NCBI RefSeq assembly: GCF_009389715.1
Contig: NC_052396.1
Span: 16,802,170 to 16,866,169 of the forward strand
Source of the DNA: Phoenix dactylifera
Taxonomy: Eukaryota > Streptophyta > Magnoliopsida > Arecales > Arecaceae
DNA length: 64,000 nucleotides
Direction of reading: 5' to 3'
Both the position numbers and the translations under genes were made by a program. Below the pieces are notes generated by a model. It was given only the letters and a program-made list of their open reading frames with translations. It did not search any database and was not told where the DNA came from. Positions within the stretch are counted from its first letter, which is position 1. The number at the start of each line of letters is the position of its first letter. Below are positions 13,707 to 45,561 of the stretch, one piece after another.

Positions 13707-13750
13707 CCACACCTTTGGCGGACGTCGTCCGGATGAGTTTGAGGCCTAAA

Positions 13751-18800: not shown

Positions 18801-19155
18801 AGTTGGCAATTAAGGTCAGAGGCAAGTGTTTGAACGGAGAGTAGATTAAAATGAAAAGTTGGGACACATAAGACATTTTTTAATAAGAGGTGACTTGTTA
18901 ATCTAACACTGCCTATGTGTGTCACTTGCACAGTTTGTCCAGTTGGAAGTTGAACTCTGGAATTCAGTTGTGCATTGACATGAGTTAAGAAAGAGATATC
19001 TGATACGATATGATCGGAAGCACCCGTATCAATGATCCAGGCACCATTCGAGAAACCATTTTGTGAAGATAAAACCAAAGGTATGATATGAGAACTCTCA
19101 GAAGAGAAAGAAGGAAGAACAGCCACAGAACGTCCTCAACCTTGCTCTGATACCA

Positions 19156-19357
19156 TAAAGAAATGAAATTGGGAAAAAGGAATGGGCTCTTCTTATTCAT
19201 TGCAGTATACAAGGATTCTATATATAGATGCCGATGATCCTTCTAGTGACTATCTTTCCTAACTGTTAACAACAAACTAGCAACAAAAAAAACAAATTTC
19301 TGGTGTAACTAATTCTGCCAGCTGCATGCGTAATGTGGAGTTTGTAATTTTCCAATA
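19156..19357 (-). repeat. copia 5' LTR, copy 1
   Basis: This is the partner of the repeat at 15617-15818, with the same length and termini, lying next to the tRNA primer-binding site at 19144-19155. Confidence 0.85.
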
Positions 19358-20235
19358 CATTCTCATGTAACTCATATAATTTTATTCTGATCAATGGTGC
19401 ACAATCGTTTTAACTTGAATACAACATATTTTTTTCTTTTTTTGGGAAGCGAGGAGGCAAAATAACTTCAGTACAATTATTGGGGCAGTGAAGTTATGAT
19501 TGCCCTGCATATCCAACCCCACTGCATGTTTGAACCTTTCCAATGTATTCCAGTTTTCCAACCAAACAAAAATTTCAAACTTTACTCTTTTTTTTTTGGT
19601 TGTTGTTGAAAAAGACATGATAAAGTAGAATGCATAGGAGTATAAGAAAAGGGGCAACACGTCCGTTAACTTTAGGATCGAGGTGAAAAAGCTAAGCAGG
19701 TATTTAATAGCGTAGCCTGTCAGGGCTTAGGTGCTCGGCATAGGCAGCCATTTGGCACGAGAGAAACTCAAGGACCTTCTTTGGAAAGAAAAAAAAAAAA
19801 AGAATCGTCGGCCTACTCGGTCTTTCATAAAACCTTGAACTTCTTCTCTTGTGGGCAGTTTTTGTAATGCCCAAACATCCGATAGTCACAACTATCTTCC
19901 AAGTAAACTGTCTTAAGATTGGAGAAGTTCCTCACTTTCTCTATTTTCCATCAAAAGATTAGCTGATCCTAAATAATTGGGACCTCTGTGCATTATTTCT
20001 GTGAAATGATTAGTTGATAGCAAAAAAATTGGGGCGTTTGATTGCTATACGACTTGCTAAAGAGGATGGCAATTACACGCTGTCTGCTTGCAAACGAAGA
20101 CCCTACTCCAGCTTTCGCACTCCCCGATCTTCTCAATTCAATCTTAAGATGGTCCCAATAATTTGGACAGAACTTGGTTGCTAGCCTCATAGTGGTCGTA
20201 GTGGTGCACACACAAATCAGCTGCCAGCTGTGTTG
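19358..20235. other. Non-coding right end of duplicated block, copy 1
   Basis: No gene is seen. There are poly-A/T runs near 19430, 19585 and 19790 and short open frames without motifs. The same sequence follows copia copy 2 at 49301-50178. Confidence 0.6.
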
Positions 20236-20624: not shown

Positions 20625-20934
20625 CTCTTTAATAAATGATTTGGTTTACTTAAACTCGGACCTAAGTAGGCCAAATGGAACCCCTAACCGTCCCTAGTTT
20701 AAAAGTTCTGTTAGTTTGACCTAATTCCATGGGTGCTGGGTTTGTTATTTGCAACCAAATCGAGCATCGATCGATTCCTATCTTCACTAACTTTGTTTCT
20801 ATAGCTGAATTACTAGTTACCTGGCATGGGCTGATAATTAATTTTAGAATGATAAAATCTTCCTTCCCAGGAGCTGGCTGTGAGAAACATCAAGCTGCTC
20901 TATTCTACTTTATCCAAGATCTCTTGCCTTTCTT
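20625..20934. repeat. Segmental duplication, right copy, first block
   Basis: This matches 4307-4590 of the left copy with scattered substitutions and a short extra segment at about 20670-20700. It is interrupted at 20935 by a LINE and continues at 27071. The last nine bases, gcctttctt (20926-20934), are the left target-site duplication of that LINE. The left copy keeps the uninterrupted site. Confidence 0.85.
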
Positions 20935-20956
20935 TTTTTTTTGGTAAATCGGCCGC

Positions 20957-23900
20957 TCACACATGACGGGCGTGAAGCTGGCCTACAAAATCAGAAAACA
21001 AAATGCTACGCAAGGACGCAGGCACAGCATCGTGGCCCGTCCAAAGAAAATCTCCCGAATGATGAGCCGCGAAAGAAGCAACCCAGTCAGCCGCACCGTT
21101 TGCCTCCCGATATACGTGCGAGGCTTGGTAGGAGACAGTCTCCCCCAGCGCTCTACGGATATCATGAAGCAGCGGCCGGTCCTCGACTGAGTACCCCCCT
21201 TCCCGGATCCACCCAACCACCGTGGTCGAGTCTCCCTCGAGAAGGAAGTGACCCTCACCAAGTACCCGCCTCGCATAGGAGACACCCTCCCAGGCCGCCT
21301 GAAGCTCTGCGGTCGCCACTGATGAGTCAAAAATCCTGCGTCCACCTGCCGCCACAAGTCTGGCATCATGATCCCTAATGATAAATTCCACACCTCCGCA
21401 GCTCCCATCCGCTGATACATTGCCATCGAAGTTCACCTTGAGAAAGCCAGGGGGTGGGGGCACCCAGGATACAAGTATCGTTCTAGACGCTGCAAGAGCA
21501 GAATGGGGGCCCCAGATGTCCCTAGCCAACCCAGTAGGTATAGCCTCAACAGCGCCGATGATCTCCGCCGCAAGCCGTAGAGCTCGATCCGCCACCACCC
21601 TCGGATGGTGGCTCTCACCATCGAAAACCCATGTATTCCTCCCCAGCCAACAATGATAGGCCAGGTAGGCATCACGAGTCCCCCTCTCCTCGCGTCCAGA
21701 CCCCCGGACCGAGGCCTCCAAGTGACAAAGGAACTCCTCAACGGACGCCCACAACTGCCTCTGGTCGGGCTGAGCTGAAGCATGTCTCCATATCTGACTA
21801 GCTCTAGGGCACTCAAAAAGAACATGATAGATGGTCTCCTCTGTCGCCTGACAAGCTCCACATCCGGCTTGGACTCTCACTCCCCGTCTCACCAAAACCC
21901 CACTAGTAGGTAAACACCCCCAAGCCACCTTCCACAGGAACAAGGCCACTCGGGGGTGAATGTGCATCCTCCAAATCCAGCCGCAGTCCATCTGTCTCGC
22001 AGAGGGCCCTCTACCAATCGCTAAAAGGTCTCGAACTCTCACAGTCGTCCTGCCTGTCCTGCTCCATACCCTCCTGTCCACTGCCTCCCCCTCCGGGATC
22101 GGCAGAGCTAGGACGCGCTCAGCAAGGTGCTCCCCGAATACCTGTCGAACAAGGCTCGTGTCCCACCTCCGCTCCCCCTGGGCAAATAAGGCACACACTC
22201 TACGTCCCTCCATCCAATCATGGTCAATCTCGGTGGGCCACCCCTGCAATGCTACCTCAGCCAGCCATCTATCCTCCAAAATGCTGATCGACCGCCCATC
22301 CCCAATCTCCCACCTGATCTCTGGCAACACTCCTGGGGCGCGAACGCAGATCTCTCTCCAAATAAAGGAAGCCCCTCGGCCAGTACGTAGGACGTAGTGG
22401 GGGGCAGGGTCCCCGTACTTCGCCCTCAACAGAGAGCCCCAAAGGCCCTCAGGCTCTAGAAGAAACCTGGCTGCCAACCTGGTCGCCAGTAACTCCCTCC
22501 GCTCGACCAGTGAGTGAATACCAAGTCCACCCCTGTCGGTCGGCTGGCAAATAGACTCCCAAGCCACCAGGTGAACACTCCCATCATCGACAGTGCCCCC
22601 GCCTGCCAACCCTCCAAACGGTGGGTGATGCTCCGCTCCATGGATGTACACTCCCTCTGACGTAGACGGCGTCCCGTAATAGGCACCCCGAGGTATGTAA
22701 GGGTCCCCACCTGCTCTCCAATCCCTAGTAGACTCATAATCGACTGCCTCGCCCCATGGTCAGTCTTCGGGCTGAAGAAAATGGCAGACTTGGTCAGATT
22801 GACCTGCTGCCCCGACATGCCACAATATGCCCCCAAGATCCTACTAATGGCCCGAGCTGATCTGCTCGTCGCGCGGGCTAACAGTATACAGTCATCAGCG
22901 AATAGCAGATGCGAAACCCTAGCCGTCCCGGCCCCCGGGCCATAGACCTCCAACTCCTGCTCATGGACGGCCTGTCTGAGTGCACGGGACAAAGAATCTG
23001 CACATAGAATGAACAAAAGTGGTGATAAAGGGCAGCCCTGTCTCAATCCTACCGACGACTCGAAGAAACCTGATGGTGAGCCATTAAACAATAAGGCAAA
23101 GGACGGGGACAATATGCAACCGAGCACCCATCTGACCCACTGTGGGTGAAATCCAAATCCCTCCAGGCATCGCCGCACAAACTCCCATCTCATCCTGTCG
23201 TATGCCCGCTCCATATCAAGTTTGACTCCCATTAAGCACCTACACTTAGGCGCTTTCTGGAGGTCAGCCATGAACTCATGAGCAATGAGGACGTTATCCG
23301 AAATGGAACGCCCCCCAATGAAAGCCCCCTGCTCAGGGCAAATGAGTCTGGGTAGGATATCCCTCATCCTCTGGACTAGTACCCTCGCCACCACCTTATA
23401 CAGGGTGGTGCACAAGCTGATCGGTCTGTAGTGGCTCGGCTCAACAGGATCCTGTCTCTTCGGAATCAGTGTAATGAAAGTCCTCCTCCACTCCACAGGC
23501 ATCGCTGTCGACACAAAAAACTGCTGGACTGCCGCAGTCACCTCCTGTCTGACTATGTGCCAATACCTCCTGAAAAAGATAGGGGGGAAGCCATCTGGGC
23601 CCGGGGCTCTGTCCTCGCCCAAAGACCAAAGGGCCGCCTGTACCTCATCCCCGGACACTGGACTGACCAAAGCTGCGTTCTCCTCCACTGACACCTGCCT
23701 CCCTGGTACCGGTCCGCATGCACCTCCATCTGTACCTCCAGACTCGGTCCATCTATCACAAAAAAACTGCACCAAGATCCTCCTGACTGTCTCCTGATCC
23801 TCAGACACCCGCCCACTGCTATCCCTAATCCGGCCAATTCGGTTCCGATGTCTCCTGATGATGGTCGACTGGTGAAAGAACCTGGTATTCCGATCCCCCT

Positions 23901-24973
23901 CCCTAATCCACTGGATCCTGGACTTTTGCCTCCAAAACACCTCCTGCTGCCTCAAAAGGGAAGTGTGTCCAGCCAGTAGTCCCCTGAGCTCCCCCTGATC
24001 CACCTCTGAAAGACTACCCCCTCTGTCCTCAAGAGCCTGTAACCTGGTAATGGATGCCTCCGTCTCCTCCACCCTCCTGAAGATATTTCCAACCTCCTCC
24101 TTATTCCACCGTTGCAATCGGCGTCTGGTTAGCTCAAGTTTCCGGGTAACCCTATACATCACATCCCCCCTAACCGGCATCTGCCACGCCTCTCTCACCA
24201 CCTCCCACGACCGTGGGTAAGACAACCATATCTTCTCAAAGCGAAAAGGACAATGAACTGGAAAGGTATAAGAGGTACTCACCAATACTGGGCAATGGTC
24301 AGAAGCAATCCTGGGCAGGTGGCGCACCAAGAAGTCCGAAAATCTCTGAAGCCATCCGGGCGTCGCGTACACTCGATCAATCCGCTCCCAAACACGTGCC
24401 ATCCCCAGCCTGTTGTTGCACCAAGTGAAGCGCGGACCAGTGAAACCAAGATCAGCCAGCCCATTGGACTGGATAAAGTCCTGGAACTCTCTGACCTCAA
24501 TATTGTTGGAGAAGACCTTACCCCCTCTCTTGTCCTCCGGGCTGTCAATGCAATTGAAGTCCCCTGCCATCATCACAGGGTGGCCAAGCTGAATAAGGCT
24601 GGTGGCCTCCTCCCACAAGACTCTCCTCTCCCGATGGTTTGTACTGGCATATGTGGCTAAAATGACCCACGGAGGCCCAGCCCCCTCAGAAATAACCAGG
24701 ATCACCTGTTGGTTGCACTTGTGGAAGACATCAATGCCAACACCCCCCAACCTCCATAACACAATGATGCCCCCTGAGAGGCCCCGAGAGTCCACCGCAT
24801 ATGTCCCCCATGATCGCGGGATGGCACGCCTAGCTCGTTCCAAACTAGATCCCGACAGTCGGGTTTCAAATCAAAACACAAACATCTGGGTCATGCAAAC
24901 TCACTAACCTACGGAAGGCTGGCCGAAAGGAAGGCTTCCCCGCTCCCCGACAGTTCCAAAGAAGAACCTTCAT
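20957..24973 (-). pseudogene. LINE ORF2 (endonuclease-RT-RNase H), two disruptions
   Basis: The start ATG at 24973 opens MKVLLWNCRGAGKPSFRPAF. About 21 codons after the C of DPDVC a one-base shift throws the frame (near 24865). The frame then runs openly from 24843 to 22456 with endonuclease motifs (GDFNCI, RIASDHCP) and reverse transcriptase (PDGFPPIFFRRYW, RQGCPLSP, LLFADDCILLA). After GALSMMG about 45 codons are missing relative to the LINE at 7944-13255, and the frame changes (near 22600). The last part (22600-20957) has zf-RVT (HPRVALFLWKVAWGCLPT) and RNase H (NFDGN, AELQAAW, LEGDSTT, ADWVASF). Known L1 ORF2 proteins nick the target DNA and copy the RNA there. Confidence 0.9.
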
Positions 24974-26996
24974 AACAACACTTGGGTGTTTTGATGCATG
25001 GCCACCCCTTCGGGGTCTTGCAGCCCTCCCTCCTTACTACACGCCGCACCCTCTTCCGGCCCAGCCATCTCAAGCACCACCTTCAATTGGTGTACCAAGG
25101 CTTCATGTGCCGTTCCCCGTGGGTGCCCGGTGCTCACAGTCTCAACTATCACAGGCTTACTCTGAACTTCCATCTCCCTGGGCTCCTCTGCCGTTCCCCC
25201 CTTAGACATCTCACCTAGGGTCTTCTTCCCAAGTGAACAATCCGTGGAAGAGAGCAAGATTTCATCCCGCACAGTCTCGGCCCCATCACCGTTCCTGGTT
25301 CCTCCGCAGACCGACTTGGGAGACGACCCAAGCTCCACTGGCGGGAGGCCACCTCGCCCGAGTTCATCCACCGCCCGAGCATCCACCCCGCCTGGCGCCA
25401 CCGGAGGCAGACCCCCATCTCCACCGCCCGCCGCCATACCCCGTCGAGGAACGGGATCCGCAGAAGATCGCTCCCGGTTAAAACCACCCTTGCCGCCCCC
25501 GCCGACAGACCTCCCAACTCGCAGGCCTTCCGCGGTCGCCGGAGACGCGCTCCGACTCCTGAACCGCCGCCGGTCGCCATTCTTGTTCGCCGCCCCGGCC
25601 ACCGGCACGCGGAACCCCGGCACGAGGGACCCGGGCACAGGGGGGCCGAGTGGTCTCGGGCCAGACCTCGCTCCGACCCGAGGGCCCCCCGCCGCTTTGA
25701 AGGGCTTCTGGCCCTTTTCATTGGGCTTGGTCCACTGTTCAGACTGGGAGGGCCCAGCCCAGGCCCCTGATCACAGGCCCCGGTCTGGACCGGGCCCGCT
25801 TGGGCTTGGACGACTCCCTGCCGAGTTAGACTCGGAGTCGACTCGGTCCGCTGCACCGGTGCCGCCGCCACGCCCAAGAATGGCGAAATGCGCCGAGCGA
25901 CCTTCTTAGGCTTCCGCCAGCCGTCAGAGTCCGGCGATGACTGAGGCTCGCTCGCCCCTCCCTTGGCCAGACACGGGCCCGAGACGGTATGAACCGGTTC
26001 CCGAGTCGGCTCGGTGCGGGAAGTCGTCGTCCCCTTCGGCCTCGCCGGAAACCTAGCCCCACCACCTCCTCGCTGTGCCGGAAACCTAGAAGAGGTCATC
26101 CATGGGCCGAAGACCCTCGGCCTACTCCCCCCGGGTACGTTTTCCTCCGTAGACGACGAAGAGCCGCCAGGGACTTCATTGACCATCGGGATCGATCTCC
26201 CTTCCGCCTCGCAGAACCGGCACTCCCCCGCCTGATGACCGGTGCGGGCACAGAGGTAGCAGAGGCTCGGCAGATCTTCGTAAACGAAGGCCTGCCAGAA
26301 CCTATTCTTCCCCCATTGGACTAGCGTACCAGGAACCAGAGGGAGGCTGGCGTCGATCTCGACCTTGGCTCGGGCGTAGCCGACCCTCCGCCTCTCACTT
26401 GACACCGCATCGAGCGCCAGTGGCCTCCCCGCCGCCGCCACCATCTCCAGGATGGATGCATTGTCCCAATACTCCAACGGCAGCCCCGGTAGCCTAACCC
26501 AGACGACTGTCCGGCTAACCGAGTGGAAGCCCGGGGTGAAGTCCGGCCGCCAGTCCTCCATCGACATCAGCTGGCCCCCCACCAGCCAAGGGGCCACAGC
26601 CATCGCCTTCGCCCGCTCCTCCCCTGACCCGAACCGGATAGTCAGAACACCCTCCGCCATTGGGAGAACCTCCACCGGTTGCAGGAGCTTAGCCCGTCCT
26701 CTGAGTTCACGAGCCACAATCTCTGCCGGAATGCGCTGCCCCAAACTCTTGGCGTGCACAGCTCTCCCCTCCCAATCACTCCTCGCCTGCATCACCCTCA
26801 CCGTCGGCAGCGTTACCACCCGGGGAAAACGACGCTCGAGCTCAGCCAGTTCCTCCTCGGTAAACCGGTGGCAACCCATCTCCGGTTGGGACGGAAGCCC
26901 TCGCACCACCCCAACCCACCGTGGAGTGATCTCAGCCCGGCCTGGCAAGGGAACATTCCGTTTTCCCCGGTCAGAAACCCCCCCGGCGGCTGCCAT
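24970..26996 (-). pseudogene. LINE ORF1 (DUF4283 + CCHC), one frameshift
   Basis: The chosen start is ATG 26996 (MAAAGGVSDRGKR), inside the element about 75 bp from its 5' end; the open frame extends past the element edge only by chance. Residues about 80-200 look like DUF4283 (LQPVEVLPMAEGVLTIRFGS, WVRLPGLPLEYWD), followed by a CCHC knuckle, CYLCARTGHQAGEC. The C-terminal half is Pro/Ser/Arg-rich. The frame shifts near 25640, and the second half (25638-24970) ends in a TGA that overlaps the ORF2 ATG as ATGA. Related ORF1 proteins bind the LINE RNA. Confidence 0.85.
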
Positions 26997-27070
26997 CCGG
27001 CGAGCCCACCAGTTACTCGGTGAAAAGCCAAGTTTCCCTCTCTCTCCTCCCTCTCTCGGACTCCAGGACC

Positions 27071-30010
27071 GCCTTTCTTCAAAAACTAATCGGTTTGGCC
27101 AATATTGCAAAAGCAGGTTCCCAGCAGTAGGCCAACCTGCAGTTTCAAATTAAATTTTCAATTTTAGAATTTGAATAATGCTTGATGATTGTATAGGGGC
27201 ATTTTAAATTTCAGATTTTTATTGGATATGTTTGTACGGAGTTTCAGGATATTTTCTAACTTCTTTGTTTTCTCATGTTGTACTCCTCGTCTTTCTCGTA
27301 ATCTTCCTTCTTATCTTTAATAAAGTTCAGGTGGGGCTCTCCCTTCCTTTCGCTCTAAAATTAAAAGAAAGAGTGATATAAGTGGCCTGCATAAAGTTTT
27401 CATTGTATTCTAAAGAATATACAGTAAAATATATTCTAGGTTTGGAGTTTCCATCTTTCCTTCCAAAAAAACAAAAGAGACAACATACACCATTTGTAAT
27501 TTTTAGTGACGGCATAGTACGAAAAGAATAAATAAGAAGAACAAAGGTGCCTCACATTGATGAGATGCCAACCAAGAGCATGGAGGCTCTTTTATTCTAT
27601 ATAAGTTATAAAAAATATATTAGACTGACATCCTCAAAGTTAGGTACAATTGGCAGTAGAGTAGCCCATCTGCAATTTCTTAAAACCAATGATATGTTCT
27701 ACCGTTATTTCTAATATCCAGCAATGATGACTTGGTGAGTCATCGCTTTGGTGTCAAAACATACATCTTGCAAGCATGAGCATCCCCTGCAGCCATAATG
27801 TTCCCTCGAACGGACGATATAGTTGAATGCTGGGAAAAAAAAAAAAAAAGGAATCATTCAAGCACTATGAGAGCATAAACATTATAATGGAACGCTAAAA
27901 TATATCTTAAAACCAGATTTTCCAATTGACCTTATGAGTTATGGCATTATAATCTTAGTATCTGCTTGTCAGCCTTCTTTTTATTCAGGTGAAGTGGCAG
28001 AAATGTAAATCTTGTGGGGGTGTTTGGGATGGGATGATTGTCCCAAGATCAAGGGTGAAGTGGGTAGAGGTGATGAGATCACCGCGTTTGGTTGCACCAC
28101 GGTGATTCTACGTGGCGGTGATCCTAAATCATCTCCACTCCTCAAATCACCCTCAACTCGATGATGGGATACTCGTCCTTGAGGTCGGAAATCCAAGATC
28201 ACCCTAGGGCAGTGATCCTGGGTTGAAAGTTAAAGACAAAAATACCCCTCAATTTAGCAGAAAAATTGATATATCAATATACCATCAATATATTGTGTCA
28301 ATGTTATATATATATAATATTATGTTGATATTATATATTATATTAATGATATATATATATATATTATAAATATTACCAATCATATTATTATCCTATTATT
28401 ATTGAAAGATAATTTTAAATTATAGTAGAATTATATTATTATATTTTATATTTATATAATAAAAATATTTAATATATTATTCCTATTTATCTTATTTTCC
28501 TAATCAAAATAATTATTAGTATTAAAAAATCTATTATAAGTATAAATAAAAATATTAATTCTATAATGAAAAATAACATATTTTTTAAAAGATTAATAAT
28601 TTATAGGAGCAATAAATATATTTTTATTGAATATATTAATAATTAATATATTGATAAATATATTAATATTTTATTATAATATATTTTATATGATTAATAA
28701 ATATATGATAAAGGCTACTAAAAGTAGAATATGTGACAAAATTATGGAACTATTATAGGAATTAGCATATTAACTTACATTTTTTATTGATGAGAATTAA
28801 AAACACATAAAAAAATTATTTAAGATATATCAGGAGTATTTGTGGTATTATATGGTCGGTGATCTAAGAATTTTCTTACTTTTATTGATGAATTATTTTG
28901 TCACGAATTATATATAAGTTAATAACAACGTTTATTTCATCACAAAATATTCAAATAAATATTTTGTGGCGAATTACAATTTTCATCGTAGATAAGTTTC
29001 AGCAACGGGGCATTGGCTATGAATACGGTGACAAAAGTTTTTCTGTCACCAAATATTTTAAGCGATGAAATTTATTTTTTAGGTATCAATACTTTTTTTT
29101 ATTATAGCTAAACATATAATTTTTTATAATAAAATAAGCTGATTATAGCTTAGTTTAGCAACAGTAGCATTGCCAACTAAGAGGCCGATGATTAAGCCAA
29201 TGGCTTCTCATTTGTATAGTAAGAATAAGTATACAAATGCAAGGCCGACCCAATTATTAGGCAAATTCTCCTAATATAAGGATTGTTCTAATGGTGTTAA
29301 GAAAAATTATATTTATATTAATTAAAAATAAAATAAAATTTTAAAATTCTACTATTGTTCCTGTCTTTTTTTTTACCATCGGGACCACGATTTATTTGCA
29401 TGTCTGCTCATTAAGGATATTATAGTTATTTTAATTTAAAACCGTTAATTTTTTAGCGTCGTTAGATAGTATGGATACATATGAAAAATAAAAATAAAAA
29501 TAGAATAGAATAGCAAAATAAATATATATATGTAAATATTAATTTTAAAAAAAAATATTCATATAAAATTTGATATTTAGAAGGATATTTATATAAAATA
29601 ATTTTAAATTTTTTTATGAGTTTAACTTAGATCGCCCACTGCAGAAGGTCCTGACAAAATGGCCTCGGGCCCAACGTCAAATACAAACGGGCTGCTCCCG
29701 TACAAATGCTACGGGCATTCATGTGGGCACGTTTATTGCAGCGCCACACGACGCGCCATCACGTACGGTACCAATCCGCCATGCACCCCACCCACGTGCC
29801 CTCGTTATTAAAGACCTTTAATTTTCTGGGTTTTTTTCCAAATAGATGCTTCCGTAGCACGTCCTTCGTGGACCCAAGAGATCCGGTCGGTGACCTCCCA
29901 GATGGCAGCGTGCAGGATGGGAATCCGAGGCAAGTTATTTGTATCTTTGTGCGCCATTTAAAGGTCGAAGTCATTTATATCTCAAAATTGACTTCCTTTT
30001 TAATTGGTAC
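27071..30010. repeat. Segmental duplication, right copy, continued
   Basis: No gene is seen. Matches to the left copy are 27107-27912 (4680-5510), 28880-29195 (6800-7170) and 29695-29990 (7590-7890). Between them are a MITE-like patch (28000-28220), a very AT-rich stretch with (TA) runs (28230-28840) and unmatched AT-rich DNA (29200-29690). Confidence 0.75.
28000..28865. mobile_element. MITE-like patch plus AT-rich DNA
   Basis: It opens with gggggtgtttgggatggg, a Tourist/PIF-like terminus, and has several ggtgatcc/gatcaccc repeats related to 20340-20600. The rest is AT-rich without coding potential, ending in the module ggagtatttgtggtattata, which also recurs near 20397. In the left duplication copy the corresponding position (about 5510) lacks it. 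The ends are not resolved. Confidence 0.4.
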
Positions 30011-30449: not shown

Positions 30450-30612
30450 TCCAGTACATCAGGGAGAAGGAAGATGCATCTCATGGCTTGGAAGGTGGTC
30501 TGTCAGCCAGTACATCATAGGAGTCTAGGGATCCAGTCTTTGGTGATGAGACGGGAGGTTCTAGCGGTGCAACATGCAGCCAGATTTATACTAGAGCCCG
30601 ATTGCTTATGGA

Positions 30613-30925
30613 CACTACAAAAGAAGCAGTTTTTCCCGGCGCTTTGCAGAGCTTTTACCGACGCTTATACGCGTCGAAAATTTTCCTCCCCACGCGACCA
30701 AAAGCGTGACGAAATCGTCGGGCAGGTGGGCGTGGAAGTTTTTCGTTCCGACGCGTGTCGTCAGCGTCGGCAGATAACCCGACGCTTTTAAACGCGTCGG
30801 CAAAGGTAATGTTTCCGACGCTTTTAAGCGTCGGTAGTTCTTGCATTACCGATGCTTTTGTCCTTCGGTGTACCTGTGCCGGGAGAGTTATTTCCGACGC
30901 TTTTAAGCGTCGGCAATAGCATTTT
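30613..30925. repeat. CACTA 3' terminal and subterminal repeat region
   Basis: It contains the terminal CACTACAA and about four palindromic units built on gacgctt..aagcgtc (near 30658, 30779, 30809 and 30894). In En/Spm such clustered subterminal motifs bind the element's TNPA-type protein; that these units do so here is inferred from position and repetition. Confidence 0.8.
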
Positions 30926-31419
30926 TTTTTTTTACAAATTCGTAGAAACAAATGTTAAACCTGTATACAAAATTCTTTGAGCCCTTCTTTGGCTTCTTTT
31001 TCGGAACCTGTATACATTAGTTCATAAATGCCCATTTTTTAAGTTCCATATAGCTGCATTGGAGATCAAAGACTGCAAGGAAAGAAAAGAAAAGCTGTTC
31101 ATCCATTCCAGCTGAATTGATTTTGGAATCGTTCATGTAAAAATTTGATTCAATTATAAGAGAGATAACGTCAGTGAGAAGGAATTTTGATACGAATATT
31201 ACCACAATCAACATAATGCCTTCCCTCTACAAATTCAACAACAACACAACATTGATTTCATTTCCTTGGTATTGGTTACAGACAGACAATGTTAGAAGCC
31301 TAATAGTCATTAAATATGCCATAACGGCTGCAGCAACGGGTAATCATATGGAGCAAGAGGATGCACAGTAGTTGCCAGGTTGCTTAACCATAGCTCAAGC
31401 GCGAGTCTGAAGGACGCAT
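30926..31419. other. CACTA interior, probable captured kinesin 3' UTR
   Basis: There is no coding frame with motifs. On the minus strand this follows directly after the captured kinesin stop codon. It may be that gene's 3' untranslated sequence up to some unknown point, then CACTA sequence. I cannot place the capture boundary. Confidence 0.35.
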
Positions 31420-31527
31420 CTAGGTCTGGCGACGGGGAATCCCAATCTCACATGAATTAACCCTTGCAGCAAAACGAAGAGAGCAAATTGACTCCCCGAC
31501 AGACGATGATTCCGGGGAGATGTTGAC
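31420..31527 (-). pseudogene. Captured last exon of a kinesin-14 (ATK1/KATA-like)
   Basis: The minus strand encodes [35 protein letters not shown] and then a TAG stop (31422-31420). This is the C-terminal end of the motor domain of plant minus-end-directed kinesin-14s of the ATK1/KATA group, including the family's own C-terminus. Only 35 codons are present; the rest of the motor and the stalk are missing. It abuts CDKB1 exon sequence at about 31528-31545 and is not in its frame. Donor and fragment share the orientation of the transposase. Confidence 0.88.
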
Positions 31528-31540
31528 CACATATTCATCC

Positions 31541-32044
31541 AAATATTCATCCAACTGACCACATATCAACTCCAGTTGAGTAGTGTGTGGTTCCCAGCAG
31601 AACCTCAGGAGCTCTATACCAAAGTGTGACAATCTACAAACAAAAAAGAATCTAATTCAGCAGAGACCAACTAACAAGCATAAGTAAACAAATGTATCAT
31701 AGTCAGCCAACGCAGCTAAGAAAAATATCAAAACTAGGTTGAAGTTGATTTCTTGATAAGAAAAAGTTATAAAGGCTGATAATGCAAGACCTCGTGGGTG
31801 TAGCTCTTAAGAGGGATGGTAAAGGTTCTTCCTAGCCCAAGATCAGCAATCTTCAAGATGCCTTTCTCTTTGTCAACCAAAAGATTTTGAGGTTTCAAAT
31901 CCCTGTTTTCATGGTATAACATCATATAGCAGATAATTCCTGCTTGACATATTTGGAAACCGAATCGAGATGAGAATACAACCTGTGAAGCACACCATGG
32001 CTATGACAATGGGCAACTCCTTTGGACAAATGATATAGAAAGCT
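31541..32044 (-). pseudogene. Captured three-exon fragment of a B1-type cyclin-dependent kinase
   Basis: Three consecutive exons are present on the minus strand. Exon a (32044-31983) reads SFLYHLSKGVAHCHSHGVLH. Exon b (31902-31791) reads DLKPQNLLVDK, ending in KSYTHE. Exon c (31633 to about 31545) reads [20 protein letters not shown] and then GVDMWSVG. Together they cover kinase subdomains VIb-IX, with HRDLKPQN, the ADLGLGR that CDKB kinases carry in place of ADFGLAR, and WYRAPE. Introns of 80 bp (31903-31982) and 157 bp (31634-31790) keep gt..ag ends, and exon a is preceded by an acceptor ag. After WSVG, where the family has Cys, the frame reads TGA. The genomic, intron-containing form argues for DNA-level capture rather than retrocopying. 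Confidence 0.9.
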
Positions 32045-32756
32045 CTGCTTTGGAAAAAAAAAAATGAATCAGTCTGACATGCACAGATCCCAGAAGGGAG
32101 GAAAAAGAATAAAAAAATATTCATTGAAATTGCTGCAATGGCCGAAAATTAACTGAAACTCCAAAGAGGAAAACATAACCTTTAAAAGCTAGAATTTGTA
32201 AGAATTTCACCGCACATTGTTAAAAGTCATACCATGTTATGGCAGAGAACCAAAAATCTGGAGAAAAAGTATGCATTCACAAAACCCGGAATAGGGACGG
32301 CACCTCAAAGTTATTCCCATAAGAAACACTCATCTTTGTTTTTTTTTCTTTTTTTTTTAAAGAAAAAAAAATGATTGAATGGATCCCTCGTTTTCTCCTT
32401 CACTTGCCAAACTGAACTCATTCAACCACACTAGGAACTGGTGAAGTAAGATTTTGGAAACCATGTTCCTGTCAAGTCAACATAGAACATACTAATTAAA
32501 GTCCTTTTCAAGATCTATACTTATCAAAGTTCTGGCATAATCGTATTTTGGAAATTGAGGTAAGTATCAAAAAAAAAAATTTAAAACAATCTAAAAACAT
32601 TCATCTACGATGTATCAAGAGTCGACGGCATCATCATCTCTACGAGTAGATGAAGTATCAGCAACCTACAAGAAAAAAATACTTTAGAAACTAAAAATAT
32701 GAAAGTCATCACGCTCATACAAGAATACATTATAATTATATAAAATATTCAAATAC
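32045..32756. other. CACTA interior, unassigned
   Basis: No recognised coding sequence is present. Part of the right side of the CDKB1 fragment may be captured intron. A-rich and T-rich runs occur near 32055, 32345 and 32570. Confidence 0.35.
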
Positions 32757-33350
32757 TTATTTATGTACCGGAGGAGCAAGTCTCTGCAAAAAAGATGAAA
32801 TATGGTCAAGCTGATCATGCAAAGATTGTATCTTCAACTCTTGGCTCTGCTTCAACTCCGCCATATCAGTCATATGACTCTGCCTCATCTCCTCTATCCT
32901 TGTCTCATATGACTGCTTTAACTGTGCCATCTCTGTCTTCAAACTACAAACCTCTGCAGTGCTAGTACCTTGTCTGGCATCTTGGGTATATCGGCTCACT
33001 GCAGACAGCTGAGTGGGGGTAACTCCGATACCGTAACCCCTCACGCGTCCATAACGTTCTGGGCCCATCAATTCTGCATAGACCTGAGCCTCGACGCGAC
33101 TGGCTGCGTCGGATGATGATGACTCCCCGACGCGCTCTGAAATGAGATTTGTAGCTCTTTCCTATATCTCTCTCAAAAAAATAAACAGTCACATTAATAA
33201 TTTAAAGAAAGTAAAATTAATAAAATAATTATGATCAAATAAAAAATGAATACATACAACTATATCTCTCGACTCGTCCCGGACAAAGCTGCCATCTCGG
33301 TGAGTGTGGGTCATCTTATAAAACTCTACCTCACCAGGCTCCCTTCCATG
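32757..33350 (-). pseudogene. CACTA second transposase gene, PF03004-like, 5' part lost
   Basis: Two exons can be read on the minus strand. The first (about 33350-33261) reads EHGREPGEVEFYKMTHTHRD followed by GSFVRDESRDI. The second (33161-32757) starts ERATNLISERVGESSSSDAA, goes on to ELMGPERYGRVRGYGIGVTP, and ends in a coiled-coil-like Gln/Glu/Lys-rich tail with the stop at 32757. The intron 33162-33260 has gt..ag ends and keeps the frame. This matches the C-terminal part of the plant Ptta/En/Spm transposase family (PF03004). The N-terminal half is missing: the fragment abuts the truncated TNP2 frame at about 33355, so one internal deletion probably removed the ends of both genes. Confidence 0.8.
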
Positions 33351-33359
33351 CTCTACTAT

Positions 33360-35366
33360 CTACACATACGGAAAGTATATTGCCAAACTATATATCATGA
33401 TACGTGCTATAAGCTCTTGTCGTATGCTCATATCTTTCAAATCAAGACGCGCTTTCAAGTTGTCTTTAGTCTTTCCATCAAGATTTAACAATGTTCCAAT
33501 CAAGTTATCACAAACATTCTTTTCTATGTGCATGACATCAAGATTATGTCGAAGAAGATTATACTCCCAATAAGGTAAATCAAAAAAAATACTCCTTTTT
33601 TTCCATAACTGTTTATGTGTAGAAGCAACCAATGTGTCATCATCATTTTCCTGTCCATATGCATTGTCATCATTCTCAAAAAAGTTAGCATCCTCTAAAA
33701 TCTCTGATATTAACCCTTCATTTAATGAGCTACCAACATCCTCCCTTCCCCTCTTCTTTAAACATTTGGAGACCTTACCAGGTATGTAATTTGTGCCATG
33801 CATTTGTCTAAGAACTTCGGTACCAGTTGGTGGAATAGGGGCAGAACGCAACTCTGTGGTACTATCAAACAGATCATTCTGAAATCGAAATGGATGGTTT
33901 GGTTCTAACCATCGACAATGGCCCATATAACAGAACTTTCCTCCATTTTTTAACCAATATGAATGGGTTGAATCTCCACAAGAAGGACATGCAATACGCC
34001 CCTTAGTGCTCCAACCGGATAAATTAGCATATGCAGGAAAATCATTAATAGTCCATATAAGAGCTGCACGCAATTTGAATGTTTGACCAGTAAAAGCATC
34101 AAATGCATCAATACCCTCCCATAACTGTTTCAATTCCTCTATTAAAGGCTGCAAAAAAACATCAATATCATTACCTGGGCCCTTATCACCTGGAATAACC
34201 ATTGACAAAATGAGTGAAGACTTTTTCATACACATCCATGGAGGTAAATTATATGAAACCAAAACAACCGGCCAAGTGCTGTATGTAGAACTCATAGTTC
34301 GAAAGGGATTAAACCCATCAGTAGCCAAACCCAGTCTGACACTGCGAGCATCAGAAGCAAATTCGGGATGCCTATCATCAAATGCTTTCCATGCGGGACT
34401 ATCCGCTGGGTGTCGTAACATTCCATCCTTTGTACGGCCTTCGTCATGCCATCTCATCGAGGAAGCCGTCTTCGGTGATGCAAACATCCTTTTCAATCTT
34501 GGTATAAGAGGAAAATACCTCAAAATTTTAGCCGGTTTTTTCTTAGTCGGTGCAGCATCCACTTCAGTCAACGAATCATTCTCGTCATCTTTATGTTTTC
34601 CCCAACGTGGGGTTCCACATATTCGGCACGACTCTTGGTTCCTATTTTCACCACGATATAAAATGCAGTCATTCGGACAACTGTGTATCTTCTCATATCC
34701 AAGGTCCAACTCTTTTATCAGTTTTTTGGCTTCGTATGAAGATGATGGCAGAGTAACACCTTCCGGAAATGCATCTTTTAATAATTGAAGAAGCATGGTA
34801 AAAGACTTGCTGGACCACCCATTCAAATATTTCAAATGTAATAAATGCAGAAGAAAAGAAATCTTCGTAAAATTCTTACAACCCGGATACAGTTCTTGAT
34901 CACAATCTTTCACCAAGTTATCATAATGAGCTGTGTCATTAGCATGTATAGATTCCTCAACATGCATGGACTGATCAATAACTGCACGCTCATCTTCTCC
35001 TACAGTTCTGATATTATGTCCAAGAGCATCTCTAAGTAGGCCCCTTATATCATCTTCTTCTACAGAATTTTGTTCCGTGTCACTACATCCAAAATTGAAG
35101 GTGTCTTCTAGATCGGAGGGTTGGTTACATGAAGGTATGAACTCTCCATGGATTACCCATTCAGTATAACCCTTTAGAAAACCATTCCATACCAAATGTT
35201 CTTCAACAATTTTTGGATCAAGAGCAGAACCGTTTACACATTTTTGACATGGACATAAAATCTTCCCGTTCATATTAGATTTCTCAAAAGCAAACTTAAT
35301 GAAATTCTGAACTCCATCCAAATATTCAGTACTAGATCTTAACTTATTTATCCAACTTTTGTCCAT
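33360..35366 (-). pseudogene. CACTA TNP2-type transposase, C-terminally truncated
   Basis: The 668-codon open frame starts at ATG 35366. The N-terminus (1-75, MDKSWINKLRSSTEYLDGV, CPCQKCVN) is the transposase-associated domain. A zinc-like CPNDCILYRG..CRICGTPRW block and the Transposase_21 core follow (MRWHDEGRTKDGMLRHPAD, WPVVLVSYNLPPWMCMK, DAFTGQTFKLRAALIWTIND, SGWSTKGRIACPSCG), up to HNLDVMHIEKNVCDNLIGTL. Complete TNP2 proteins are much longer and continue into DUF4218/DUF4216; here the frame ends just after RLDLKDM. Known TNP2/TNPD proteins cut at the CACTA ends. This copy is presumably inactive, although its remaining frame is open throughout. Confidence 0.92.
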
Positions 35367-36718
35367 TCTATTAGAATACCGATTGAACTGCAGTTTTTAA
35401 AAAAAAGATAAACAAAATTAAGTAAAATGCAACAGAAGAAGTATATTATGCAGCTGAATGGAATGAGAATGAGAAAGAGAAAGGTTACCACTCAGCAAGA
35501 AAATCTTAAGCATTTGTTGAAGGTCTTGCAGAGGTCTCATGATTTTCAACAAGAAAATAAACACATTTGCAGCATGGATGTGAGGCAAGACGTGGTGCAA
35601 CATGGCATGGTGTCATGTGAGATCTGGCACATCTAAAGGCCTCAAGCATGATTTTTGTTTCTTTTTTCTTTCTTGTTTGTTCATATTGTGCTTTCTCTCA
35701 CTCAAAAAAGAGTGTTAAGTTTTCATATATAAACTAGCTTTGCATCAATAAGTAAATACATGCAGCATCAAGATTTAATCATAGTAAATTATAAATGGGT
35801 GTTAAACCTTAAATTTCTTCTTCAACAAGTTCTTGCTCCAAAAATCTCCTTTTGCAAGCTTGTGCTCCAAAGCTGCTGGTGCTTTCTATGCAATTTCTTG
35901 ACTCTCAGGTGCCCAAAAAGCTGCTGGCAGTTTTTTCACTAATACCAGTAACCTGTATGTGCAGTATCAACTTTTCAGCAGCCTAAGATTTTACATGTAA
36001 TGTGACAGCAAATTGAATTAAAAAAGCTGTTACTGATGATCATGCAATCTATTATTTTCCTACACATTACCAAAAGATTTGTACATTAGAACTAAAACAA
36101 GCAGGCTGAAAAAGACTGCAAACACATTGATGTCATCGGCATTTCAAGGTCAACATAAAGCAAAATCAGGTGGTTTCGGATTGCATCTCATACAGAGATA
36201 TTTAGATCTTTTGCATAACTAACAAAAAAAATCAGGTTATATCCATCTGAACAATCAAGTTTAGGGAAACTTATTTAACTCAATGATATATGATAAAAAA
36301 ATAGTAAATTTTAGGTTTAACTTTATCTTAATGAATGAGAATAAAGGAGGAAGAACCACTTATGCATTTTATTAATTGTAATTCCAGCATCCGTTGCTTT
36401 CTCTATAGATCAGGAATTGGATACTTTCTGATATAGATGGGCATTTTACATTTCCAAAATCACATTGGGCACACATATGCATCTGATAAATTCAAGAAAA
36501 GACCAAGCTTCAAAAATGATAAACTATAATTTCATCCATATATAATTATGTATACTTTGCAACACCTTCAATTGAATATGCCAAGTATTGCAATCTTGAA
36601 TACAAACCCAGGCAGCATGCTCTTAAGAGAGCAGATTTGCTATAATGACAACTCTAGACATTACGCTTTACCAATGCTATGAATTATTTAAAAAACAAAA
36701 AAAAAAAAGTCGAAGCCT
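35367..36718. other. CACTA 5' region, unassigned
   Basis: This is AT-rich DNA upstream of the TNP2 start codon with no supported coding frame. It could be a leader intron of the transposase transcript. Nothing else is recognised. Confidence 0.35.
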
Positions 36719-37060
36719 TTAGAAGGTCAAAACCAAGTAATATAATTTTACAATATCTACTGATCTTAATGAGAGCCAGAACAAGCAAAATTTAGACCAC
36801 ATTATAAGCTGATATATAACAGTCCAAGACCAGTGGCAAATAAGAGAGAGATGGGTCATAGATTTCATTTTCATGCTTCCATAAAAGAAATCCCACTTAG
36901 GATCCCATTTTCCATGCGAGCGTCGAGCGACGACAATAGGTCTTCGGATCATAGGCACCATGTCTCCTTCTTTGAACGATCTGGACCTGCTTATCGAAAG
37001 CCTGAGCCATGTATGAATGGTAGAACGATTCCATGAGAAATTTACAGGTCTTTTACACAA
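36719..37060 (-). mobile_element. Possible Ty3/gypsy fossil scrap inside the CACTA element
   Basis: A short minus-strand stretch contains FKEGDMVPMIRRPIVVARRS and GKWDPKW, reminiscent of the region after integrase in plant gypsy polyproteins. It is a broken fragment without terminal repeats. The assignment rests on this motif alone. Confidence 0.3.
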
Positions 37061-37739
37061 GCAAAAAAAAATCCAATCTTATCATGCAAGTATATGTTCT
37101 ATAAATTCAACCCTGGATAGTTGGAAAAAAGTTGAAAGATCATGGTTGCAGCTCTCAGGCAACTAGGTGATCCATTAACCAATTACATGAAACTTAACTC
37201 TCCAAATATTTCTCGTTTTTTACGAAAACAAAGCATAACACAAGCAACAAACTGTAAACACATGAAATAAATATTTCTCGTTTTTTTTCAAAATGCAGAA
37301 ACGAAGCCAAGATAAAAATTAATCCATCATCAATCAATAGAAAAGTTCGCAAAGACATATTCTCCAAATAACAACTACTGTAACTCCAAAGGGTTAAAAA
37401 CAGAAACAAAAAAAACCGGAGAGAGGGAGAGAGAAGGAAACAGATAGAATTACTGATTGGTGCAAAACGGGGGGAGAAGCCCCTGAGATTAGAACTATCA
37501 ACGCACATAGAGATCCCAATGCTCCAATAGCAGGGCCTCAAAAGATCAATTACAGAAGATCCCCCAACCCATTCTCTGTGCTGAGAAGAGGAGTGAGAAG
37601 CTCTGATTAACAGAGCATTCCTCAGGAAGAGAGAAAGTGACAGAGAACAGGAAGAGAATGCAAGCGAAGAGAGCAAACAAAAATATGAGATTGAAAGCAT
37701 CAAGAATTCACCCCGAACGAGATAGAAAGATAGAACTAG
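37061..37739. other. CACTA 5' region, unassigned
   Basis: No gene is recognised. The composition becomes purine-rich toward 37700, which on the minus strand looks like an intron or leader rather than coding sequence. Confidence 0.3.
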
Positions 37740-38345
37740 AAGACGAAGTCAATTTACCAGGAAGTAGAGGAGCGCGACCTCGATCGCCCGCCGACGAGCT
37801 TTTCTCCGACGGCAAGCTAGCGATCAAGCCGGCGATTAAGACAGCAAGCCGATATCCGATCGGTAGAAGGAACGGGGACCCGACTAGGGAGACGCCGGCG
37901 GAGATCGAGACGGAGATCTCCGGATCGCCGGAGCCCTAGCCGAGGAGGAGAGCGGTGCGTTAAAGCGAAAGGGTTCCGATAGCAGGGCACCAGATCGGAA
38001 AAGAGCTCTCGAGAGAAAATAACACTTAAATAAGCTCGATCAAGGCTTATACAAAAGAAGAGGAGAAGGAGCGTGTTGAGGAAGGAGGAGAAGGAGGAGA
38101 ACAAGCGAGACGGAGGGAGAGAATGGAGTAGGAGAAACTACCTCGGGCGGAGCGCGCGTTGGGGTCGGTCGGTCGACGCCGGAGAGGAGGTAGGCCTTCT
38201 GGAACGTGGCCGTTGGCGTCAAGGAAGTCCGATTCGTGGCTTTCAGCCGCCGGAGAGGAGGGAGATGGGGGCAGCGCCGGAGACGAAGGCAAGGGCAGCG
38301 CCGGAGACGAAGGCAAGGGGTATCGGGAGTAGCTAGGGCAAGAAT
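37740..38345 (-). promoter_or_regulatory. GC-rich leader/promoter-like segment of the CACTA element
   Basis: This roughly 600-bp GC- and CpG-rich segment lies inside the element's 5' end and stands out from the AT-rich interior. Near 37930 the minus strand reads ggctagggctccggcgatcc, like a plant 5' UTR, followed by a possible splice donor near 37760 (CCTG|GTAAAT). It may be the transposase promoter and first leader exon, or another captured host segment. Neither reading can be proven here. Confidence 0.35.
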
Positions 38346-38378
38346 GCGGGCTTGGGGTCGGGCGCTGCGTATTAAGGG

Positions 38379-38569
38379 GGCCTTGGCGACGCTTATAAGC
38401 GTCGTTTTAGCCTCAAGTCTACGACGACGCGTTTAAGCGTCGTCCAATTCTTCAAATTTCCCACGCTCCCCAAAAGCGTCGGGAAAGGTTGGCGCGGGAG
38501 CAGGAAATGCCGACGCTTTCCCTTAGCGTCGGCATTTAAGCGTCGGCTTTTCACACTTTTACTGTAGTG
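38379..38569. repeat. CACTA 5' terminal and subterminal repeat region
   Basis: Palindromic gacgctt..aagcgtc units occur at about 38387, 38424, 38470 and 38510-38548, followed by the terminal TACTGTAGTG. This is the counterpart of the cluster at 30613-30925. Confidence 0.8.
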
Positions 38570-40080
38570 GGAGTGCCCTGTTGAGGGCTAAGTATGATGC
38601 TTATACGATGATGGGGGAGCTCCAAGCTGGTCGGCGATCGTCCTTCGTATGGAGGGAGGTCTGCACCCACATACCGCTGGTGCAGGCAGCGGTCCGGTGG
38701 GCAGTGGGGGATGGGCGTTCTATAGATGTCTTGGAGGACAGTTGGGTGCATGAGCAGGCTCTTAGCCGCGCGTCGACTTTTTTTGATCCTTTGAGGCTAG
38801 AGGGCCATCGGGTTAGCGATCTGATCGTTCCGAGCCAGGGCAGGTGGGATGAGGCATTGATTCGGATGGTCTTTGGGAGGCAGTTGGCTGAGATGATCAT
38901 GGCCATTCCACTTCCCGCGATGGACGTGGTAGATAGGTTGGTATGGGCAGCTACAGGCAGGCCGAGCGTACGTTTCACAGGCATCCGAGAGGCTATGGGA
39001 GGGAAGGCAGTGAGGCAGATGGATGGGAGGTGGATCTGGAGATTGCACATTCATCCCCGGGTGGCCATGTTTCTTTGGAAAGTGGCCTGGGGCTGCTTAC
39101 CCATGAGGGGCGTGTTGGCCGGGAGGGGCATGGGGATCAGTCCGAGTTGTGCCTGGTGCTCGGAATGGGAGGAGTTCATCACTCATGTGCTGCTTAGTTA
39201 TGATCAGGTAGTACAGATTTGGAGTTGTGCAGGATTGTTTTAGGGGCAGGTCAGCCGATCTGTGGACGACTTTTTACTTCGGTTGAGGGGAGCGGTGCGG
39301 CGACCACAGACGTTGGAGTGGGGGATTTGACTGGCCTATGTAGTATATCATATATGGTTAGACAGAAATGCCAGAATTTTCGATGATAGACGGAAACCCC
39401 TGTGGCGTATTGTTGAGAGGGCCCACATCCAGACGGCTGAGATCATCAGAGCTACCTCACCGAGTTCATTTAGGATGGCTAGAGACATCTGGGACCCCCG
39501 CTCAGTAGCTTTAGCGTCAGCTTCAGTGCTCAGGTTTCTTCTTATCTCTTGAGAGTCCCCACTCTTCGGCTACCTAAAGGTGAATTTCAATGGTAGCAGC
39601 CCATGAGTTGGTGGTGGGGCGGTGTAGATTTTATGATCAGAGGCCACGACTCACAGCTGATTGCTGATGGTGGGCGACGGATCGATGGGTTCTTAGCTAT
39701 AGGGATGGAGCTCAGGGCAGCATGGGAGGGGGTCTCCTATGCGAGACGGAGGTTAGGGGCCGAGCACATTATCTTGGAGGGTGGCTCGGCCACAGTGATC
39801 GATTGGATACAGGAGGAGGGATGGAGGGGGGATGGCAGTCCCTTGTTGTGCGACATCAGGTTGATGCTGAGAGATTGCAGTGCTTTTCAAATAGTGCACG
39901 TGTACCGGAAAGCGAATAGGGCCGCAGATTGGGTTGCATCTTACGTTGCGCAGCACTCTGGAGAGATACTTTGGCCGCACCGGGAGGCCCTCCCTCGCTT
40001 CTAAGCCAGGTTCTAGTCTCTGGTTCTATTGGCATGTCCTACACTAGAGCAGGATGAGGTGCTGTTGTACTCAAAAAAAA

Positions 40081-40473: not shown

Positions 40474-42573
40474 GAACAAAAATCTTATGGGGCACGTACC
40501 ATACTAGATCGTATGGTACGCGCTCCTACTTCGGCCACGTTAATATTTTATATGAATCTCAAAAAAGCAGTTTGCGATCTATTTAAGTCGGCAAACCTAT
40601 CTTATGAGAGTTTGAGTGGGACGCAGCTTGGAGTTTGAGCTATAAGTAATAGCCTGGGAATTTTAACGTCAGCAAACCTATTTAGATACCCGACATGTTT
40701 GACATTACCACCATGTTCATCTCGTTGGCCTTCCGATGACCACAGCTTTTCTTTTGTTTTTGGTACAAGATAGCTACAGTTGGTGCCTCGCAAGCTAAAT
40801 TTTGAGAAAAAGTATGGGTATTTAACTAGAAGTCTTTACTTAACATAATTATTCATATTTCATTTTTAAGTTTTAAAAGATATAGTGAACATATCTACTG
40901 GAGCTCACTAAGTTTTTATTTGCATTGCAGGTAATTGATTGGAAAGAGGTTGCCGCTTGGATTATGCGTACCCTTTTTTGTTCATTAGAAACTTTTAGTT
41001 GTAAACATCTCTCCATTTTTGGCATTTGTGTATGCATTAATGTGAGATGAATATACCATTTTTTCTGCTAGGTGTGTATCATTTGGCCATACAGTGTGTA
41101 CTGCTGAACACGCATATATTGATATACCTGAAAATATGTATTGAATCGATGCTTAGTATGTATTAGTAAAGCTTAAAGTGTGCATCAAGAAGTCGATGAG
41201 TGTGCATCACTTAGTCATGTGGTGTGTACTGGTAAACACCAAGTTGTCGAAATTGTGTATCGATATAATTAAAGGTATGTATTGAAACTTGGATGACCAT
41301 TCTGCTATGTATGTATCATTTTGCCATGCAGTGTGCACTGCTGAACACCATGATCTAAAAAGTATGTATTGATATACCTAAAGGTATGTATTGGATCGAT
41401 GCTTAGTATGTATTAGTAAAGTTTAAAGTGTGTATCAAGAAGCTGATGAGTGTGTATCACTTAGCAATGTGGTGTGCACTGGTGAACACTAAGTTGTTGA
41501 AACTGTGTAACGATATAATTAAAGGTATGTATTAAAACTTAGATGGCCATTTTTCTAATGTGTATCATTTGGCCATGCAGTGTACACTGCTAAACACCAT
41601 GATCTCGAAAGTATGTATCGATATGCTTAAAGATATGTATTAGATCGATGCTTAGTATGTATTAGTAAAGCTTAAAGTGTGTATCAAGAAGCCGGTGAGT
41701 ATATATCACTTAGTCATGTATTATGTATCAATTTACTAAAAGATAGATATTGGGATGTTGGATGAATATATTACCAAATGTGTATCAACTAGCCGTATAG
41801 TGAATACCATATTTTTCAAACTGGTCATATAATGTATTACTTCAAAAGAGATGCAAAAGTTTTACATTCCTTGAAATAGATAACAAATTCAGTAAAAACC
41901 TAAGAAGAGTATTAACCAAATACTAACATTCTATTGTATATTGAAATTTATCCAACTTTATAAAAAATTGAGAACCCTCTAATAAAAGGAAAGAAATATA
42001 TAATAGAATATATGAAAGAAATAGACAGCAACGCAAGATATTTAAACAATGTATCCAAGTCTGTATCTGTTGTATGAGTTAAACTGCCGGACAATAAGAG
42101 ATGTTTAGATGTTTGTATAATAATAAAATATAGATAAAATATAAATAACATCCCCCTCCCCCAACCGTGGAATGTCTCCTCACCCATCCTTGGAACGTCT
42201 TCTAAACTTGGTCGTTGCTTCTTTTCCACGTACCAAAAAAAATGTAGCTATCTTGTACCAAAAAAATAAAAGAAAAGCTATGGTCATCAGAAGCCCATTA
42301 CTTCTTTTTCTCGTACAAAAAAAAAAGAACTCAAAGTTTAGCTGTGGTCATCGGAAGGCCAACAGGATGAACATGGTGGTAATGTCAAACGTGCCAGGTA
42401 TCTAAATAGATTTGCCGACATTAAAATTCCCAGGCTGTTACTTATATCTTACTCAAACTCCAAGCCGGGTCCCACTCAAACTCCCATAAAACAGGTTTGC
42501 CGACTTAAATACGTCGCAATCTATTTTTTTGACATTCGTGTAAAATATTAACGTGGCTGAAACTCATATGATT
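40474..42573. mobile_element. Element with long terminal inverted repeats (foldback/MULE-like)
   Basis: The left arm (about 40474-40795) and the right arm (about 42240-42573) are reverse complements with roughly 80-85% identity. They share blocks such as cacgttaatatttta, aagtcggcaaacct, gtttgagtgggac and tttgacattaccaccatgtt. The interior is non-coding and holds a tandem repeat. The corresponding place in the other duplication copy (13506-13564) lacks it, which supports an insertion. The left arm alone has a 9-bp hairpin stem, gtaccatac/gtatggtac (40496-40519). No target duplication or transposase was found, so the class (Mutator-like or foldback) is open. Confidence 0.7.
41075..41735. repeat. 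Tandem repeat, unit about 240 bp, nearly three copies
   Basis: Units begin at about 41075, 41312 and 41561 (tgtatcatttggccat-like) and share gatgcttagtatgtattagt and gtgtatcaagaag. Each unit is itself a diverged dimer of roughly 118 bp, since tgtgtatcatttggccat and gtgtgcatcacttagtcatg are related. Neighbouring units are about 90% alike by eye. There is no coding frame. Confidence 0.85.
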
Positions 42574-43651: not shown

Positions 43652-43695
43652 GCACACCTTTGGCGGACGTCGTCCGGATGAGTTTGAGGCCTAAA

Positions 43696-45213: not shown

Positions 45214-45561
45214 AATGGACCAAGGCGTATCTCGTCCATTTCATTTCATTTCATCTCTGTCTCCAAGCGATCGAACCAGTATGGAATCTGATTGTCCTTC
45301 ACTTTGTTGATTAATTTGAGTTATGTTGCCGACGTTTCCCTGCATTTAATAAGGTCCAATATGCTGCTTAGTTCGAATATCAAGCAAAATAGGGTAAGGG
45401 GCACCCGCCATCTTCCTCGAATGTCATTTCATTTCCTCGTGAGTGCATCGACGACCGATGTGGTATAAAACCACAACCTACAACAACGTCCTAAACGAGG
45501 TGGGCTCTTTCTTATAAACACCAATAAGGATTTTATCTAGTCATATGCCAAAAAGTCATTC
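45214..45561. other. 3' flank of CYP94D copy 2
   Basis: This has the same non-coding sequence as 15269-15616, with one visible substitution near 45496. It ends in CATTC, the target duplication of copia copy 2. Confidence 0.6.

Follow-up and report, generated by a model that had tools for sequence, protein, structure and literature searches.

A CACTA transposon that has lost internal sequence while keeping part of its TNP2 transposase has very probably captured genomic DNA of two host genes, one of the CDKB1 type and one of the kinesin-14 type, and carries the pieces as decaying passengers inside the LINE into which the element inserted. The element lies in a stretch of 64,000 nucleotides of Phoenix dactylifera DNA, all of which was analyzed and is called the window below. 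The features on which our argument depends are the following, with positions counted from the first letter of the window.

30610-30612: target-site duplication GGA, left
30613-38569, minus strand (transposase orientation): whole CACTA element, 7,957 bp, with CACTACA ends and GGA flanks
30613-30930: left subterminal repeat region, 10 CGACGC/GCGTCG hexamers in 318 bp
31384-31530, minus strand: putative final coding exon of a kinesin-14 of the ATK type, with similarity starting at 31527
31527-31554, minus strand: junction between the captured pieces, a 12-bp tandem near-repeat of 2.3 copies
31536-31549, minus strand: 14 bp that recur unchanged and in the same orientation at 35315-35328 within the TNP2 ORF, perhaps templated filler
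31541-31633, minus strand: CDKB1-like partial exon, 28 residues (31633-31550), TGA (31549-31547), then IF
31634-31790, minus strand: captured intron, gt..ag, 157 bp
31791-31902, minus strand: CDKB1-like exon, (R)DLKPQNLLVDKEKGILKIADLGLGRTFTIPLKSYTHE
31903-31982, minus strand: captured intron, gt..ag, 80 bp
31983-32047, minus strand: CDKB1-like exon, QSFLYHLSKGVAHCHSHGVLH(R)
32760-33161, minus strand: TNPA-like C-terminal remnant, Transposase_24 profile positions 87-137 (Pfam 4.7e-5, below the curated cut-off)
33192-33359, minus strand: TNPA-like remnant, Transposase_24 profile positions 53-85 (Pfam 6.7e-6, below the curated cut-off)
33363-35366, minus strand: truncated TNP2 transposase ORF (Transpos_assoc and Transposase_21), 668 codons, then an in-frame stop
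38370-38569: right subterminal repeat region, 8 hexamers in 200 bp
38570-38572: target-site duplication GGA, right

The element shows the marks of a CACTA transposon, namely CACTA-type TIRs, a 3-bp target-site duplication, subterminal repeats clustered at the ends and a transposase of the TNP2 type. CACTACA opens both of its termini, 11 of the 14 first terminal bases being equal, and the hexamers that crowd the two subterminal regions occur 5 times in the 7,439-bp interior of the element and 15 times in the whole window outside it. When the flanks are joined with a single GGA, an open LINE frame runs across the insertion point; this frame can be aligned free of gaps with a different LINE ORF, located within 20960-22759 of the window, with 89 of 179 amino acids identical, and the right flank is a zf-RVT match (Pfam, 4.2e-12). 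Taken together, the CACTA ends, the GGA, the repeat clusters and the LINE frame across the joined flanks indicate that the boundaries are right and that the exons lie inside the transposon. The element would have inserted into the LINE and made the GGA duplication in doing so. The preliminary description had placed the captured exons between CACTA ends with a gga duplication and in transposase orientation, and both statements hold: the termini, the duplication and the restored LINE frame enclose the exons, all of which lie on the minus strand like TNP2.

The transposase region is incomplete. The TNP2 ORF matches the Pfam profiles Transpos_assoc (6.4e-25) and Transposase_21 (1.8e-96), and neither DUF4218 nor DUF4216, which would be expected at the C-terminal end of a complete TNP2, was found in the transposase region of the element (Pfam, E up to 1). 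No NCBIfam model matched TNP2, and a search of viral contigs for its relatives gave one stretch that fitted a pattern and no confirmed relative. The element probably derives from a longer one by internal deletion, retains transposase sequence and lacks autonomy. This composition bears on its name, for which Pack-CACTA had been proposed. The part of that proposal that stands is the presence of two host gene fragments in a bounded CACTA element, and host coding DNA does lie between the TIRs as packFinder demands; the strict name fails on the truncated TNP2 ORF and the TNPA-like remnants, as packFinder assigns an element for which BLAST finds a transposase match longer than 250 bp to the autonomous class, not to the Pack-TYPE elements, which it describes as non-autonomous and devoid of such a match (PMC8903248). 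The transposase was judged by Pfam in our analysis, as against BLAST in the packFinder definition (PMC8903248). The label is right in spirit, not by strict definition.

Searching the exons as proteins (Pfam, PDB) found both a CDKB1 and a kinesin-14 similarity. The CDKB1-like block sits downstream of the TNPA-like pieces and in the same orientation. Spliced, it encodes an 87-aa fragment that matches Pfam Pkinase at 5.2e-29 and, in the PDB, where the best 60 of 2022 matching sequences were considered, matches a Cdc2-like kinase best (9e-37), CDK2 from 1.7e-35 and CDK1 from 6.6e-35. Both introns begin with gt and end with ag, so that the original reading of three consecutive CDKB1 exons with intact introns is borne out. 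The class was assigned by comparison with reference sequences. Against these the whole fragment is identical to rice CDKB1 at 77 of 87 positions, to Arabidopsis CDKB1 at 73 of 87 and to CDKA;1 at 56 of 87, and to the partial references at 55 of 70 (CDKB2) and, with gaps, 55 of 86 (human CDK1). Over the 70-aa stretch common to the plant references, aligned without gaps, the identities number 65 for rice CDKB1, 61 for Arabidopsis CDKB1, 55 for the available part of rice CDKB2 and 48 for Arabidopsis CDKA;1. By these identities the kinase fragment appears to be nearer to CDKB1 than to any of CDKA, CDKB2 and animal CDK1, a class label that depends on the reference sequences used. Its nearness to the rice sequence points, tentatively, to a monocot host. 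Two full-length CDKB1 proteins, searched against the element, gave further matches that were all weak (E of 0.88 and above), and no other CDKB1 exon was therefore recognized in it. Relatives of the CDK fragment were also present among viral contigs (7 loci, 33-38% identity) and genome contigs (at least 555, the best 80 of which do not exceed 59% identity, in partial alignments, and carry prokaryote titles), and these 87 viral and prokaryote-titled loci were dropped as uninformative on the donor. The CDK piece touched 16 prokaryotic kinase-type NCBIfam models, all below their own cut-offs.

The kinesin piece is short and its assignment correspondingly more guarded. For the 36 aa before an in-frame TAG (31422-31420), all 19 PDB sequences matched at E up to 10 bear names of the kinesin-14 type (Kar3, ncd/claret, KIFC1, KIFC3 and AGR253Wp), and the six below E 0.001 are all Kar3, the best at 4.2e-4. 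The piece also matches the end of the Pfam Kinesin profile weakly (0.0013, below the curated cut-off), and no NCBIfam model matched it. The fragment seems to resemble the C-terminal motor end of a kinesin-14 of the ATK type, in agreement with the proposal that the final coding exon of an ATK1-like kinesin-14 adjoins the CDKB1 exons, for which the six Kar3 matches speak. A second part of that proposal, that the exon includes its own stop codon at the TAG, is probably wrong. Past the TAG the same frame continues with MRPSDSRLSYG to a TAA at 31386-31384; ATK1 ends in the same DSRLSYG, and the alignment to ATK1 passes through the TAG (47 positions, 78.7% identity). On the strength of this one reference sequence the TAG is probably premature and the TAA the likely native stop, and since the similarity resumes past the TAG, the captured kinesin coding sequence would end at 31384. 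A literature search on the C-terminal motif RLSYG gave nothing related, as judged by title.

The two pieces meet at the 12-bp near-repeat. The CDKB1 frame reaches the TGA at 31549-31547, at a site where CDKB1 has Cys, and the kinesin similarity, which starts at 31527, is shifted by one base relative to the CDKB1 frame; the pieces are thus joined out of frame at a short repeat, as had been described. The open frame over the junction that would mark a functional chimeric gene is absent, and the TGA at the joint, the one-base offset and the kinesin TAG together rule out a fusion protein as the product of these exons. The 14 bp at the joint occur exactly twice in the window, at 31549-31536 (TGA included) and in TNP2, and six of the 665 13-mers of the captured block recur elsewhere in the window, two of the six being this same TNP2 match. 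In 100 shuffles the 14-mer had no occurrences (in the window, one occurrence is present by construction). As a control, 34-bp segments of the element interior were compared with the rest of the element, and 10 of 436 had at least 14 bp in common with it; two of the ten are the two sides of the joint-TNP2 match itself and eight lie in local repeats (37187-37305 and 38173-38325). That the 14 bp are templated filler from gap repair is no more than suggested by this match, because it was found post hoc and because its TG.ATATTTG part is expected from CDKB1 itself. A brief switch into TNP2 during repair would mean that the TGA may have originated at the joint and not by later mutation. If confirmed in sister copies, the 14 bp of apparent TNP2 origin would suggest that the pieces were joined by repair within the element.

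The course of events that we favor is the following. A probably non-autonomous, transposase-bearing CACTA element would have captured genomic DNA of a CDKB1 gene and of the 3' end of a kinesin-14 gene, and would hold the pieces in sense between the TNPA-like remnant and the subterminal repeats at 30613-30930. As the introns are retained, DNA and not mRNA would have been copied; the capture of processed mRNA was rejected because introns are present. An illegitimate event would have fused the two pieces, and this joining might conceivably have occurred while a gap was being repaired, the template switching briefly to the TNP2 gene of the element itself. The passengers would have been mobilized by a transposase acting in trans. 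A transcript of the captured block, if there is one, would presumably be a truncated or non-coding RNA. The capture boundaries, the order of events and the decay of the pieces after capture, as opposed to the capture of a pseudogene, are what we infer from the present state of the element. Both donor genes act in mitosis, and this common role may be a coincidence. A 2026 review relates a proposal, drawn from work on Arabidopsis Pack-CACTA, in which neighboring elements excise aberrantly and yield a hybrid element (PMC13317346).

A different vehicle is improbable. Helitrons and MULEs also capture plant exons, according to the same review (PMC13317346), and one of these could have caught the exons and then become nested in the CACTA element; however, no nested element was recognized among the inverted pairs of 30613-33200 (25 longest of 44), and those of these 25 pairs that span the block have arms of 13-33 nt, mostly A/T-rich. 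Decidedly improbable, too, is a regulatory role of the passenger, by which its RNAs or small RNAs would act on CDKB1 and kinesin-14, or its similarity to them would give the element a silencing 'camouflage'. Effects of captured fragments are discussed in plants (PMC13317346, PMC8978399), the captured exons of soybean Tgm-Express1 are described as spliced into transcripts (PMC1947982), and the splice sites of our captured block are intact. Against this, the captured fragment is sense to the transposase gene, self-BLAST found no second copy of the block in the window, direct or inverted, and the block, made up of partial exons and introns, measures about 0.7 kb. The stronger form of this idea, that likeness to two essential cell-cycle genes shields the element from small-RNA silencing or influences both genes in dividing cells, is highly improbable in our judgment. 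An ordinary host gene or pseudogene beside the transposon and not within it, for which the gene-like exons and introns might be taken, has practically no chance of being right, as the block has TNPA-like remnants on one side and subterminal repeats on the other, all inside GGA-flanked ends, and excising the whole span restores the LINE frame, an empty site that contradicts this reading.

On the capture reading, this is a case of CACTA exon capture in which the limits of the element are fully defined, the joint between the two donor pieces can be resolved and the empty site can be read. For annotation it means that the captured CDKB1 and kinesin exons should not be called a gene.

Several other features of the window were recorded. 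Within the element, the minus strand of 36722-37078 encodes a peptide, FKEGDMVPMIRRPIVVARRSHGKWDPKWDFFYGS, that is without a Pfam match and seems to resemble the end of a gypsy-type polyprotein; one more captured or nested piece may be present here. Near the transposase-side end, 37700-38330 is a GC-rich stretch with a 24-bp tandem repeat (38269-38319) and could be the element promoter, a 5' leader or a further captured piece. The element lies between two 6.5-kb copies (13708-20235 and 43653-50178) that are 99.77% identical. They contain a cytochrome P450 ORF, seen by Pfam in the first copy, to which that search was applied, and a Ty1/copia element whose 202-bp LTRs agree at 98.5%; the copia ORF is interrupted in the 13708-20235 copy, whereas in the 43653-50178 copy it stays open for 1,032 codons. 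This pair is either a recent duplication or an assembly artefact. At 40530-42561, an inverted repeat (about 220 bp, 87%) surrounds direct repeats with a spacing of 249-250 bp (41107-41806); this is possibly another non-autonomous DNA transposon. Related blocks at 4306-7810 and 20626-29929, which are 76-95% identical (4306-4588 with 20626-20934, 4681-5487 with 27108-27911, 6813-7117 with 28870-29194 and 7601-7810 with 29703-29929), probably belong to a single repeat family present twice. Likely host gene exons, recognized by Pfam, were found at 50681-51097 (aquaporin-type MIP), 55014-57354 (minus strand, a leucine-rich-repeat region adjoining a protein kinase region) and 61253-61648 (plus strand, alcohol dehydrogenase N-terminal domain).

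Our literature searches found no paper tying gene-fragment capture by CACTA elements to kinesin, and those on CDKB1, kinesin and transposon together gave nothing related, as judged by title. The closest precedent for the captured block is, as far as its published description goes, soybean Tgm-Express1, a CACTA element in an F3H intron (the wp allele of F3H) that carries exonic and intronic pieces of five genes, CDC2 plus four others, and has chimeric ORFs (PMC1947982). Its CDC2 piece likewise consists of three exonic regions and two introns with canonical gt..ag borders, a likeness at the CDC2-type level only, and the finding of a CDC2-type fragment with two introns in both elements may be chance, there being two cases. 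The two differ in that Tgm-Express1 has five donors, sits in the F3H intron and gives transcripts, which were demonstrated by RT-PCR and are spliced with the host gene (PMC1947982), whereas the element described here has two donors, sits in a LINE and is known from its sequence. On wheat chromosome 3B, 140 CACTA capture events are reported, with 17 captured genes potentially representing exon shuffling (PMC4290129); that study examined parental genes, expression and dN/dS, while ours concerns the captured sequence alone. In Chenopodium, fragments of Neprosin and AP2 have been found in CACTA elements that, like ours, bear transposase and hold the gene fragments outside its coding sequence; there, the fragments are described in the 5' region (PMC8978399), and in our element they are on the 3' side of what remains of the transposase. 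Set beside these systems, the capture event is ordinary for plant CACTA elements and is a further example of a well-documented habit.
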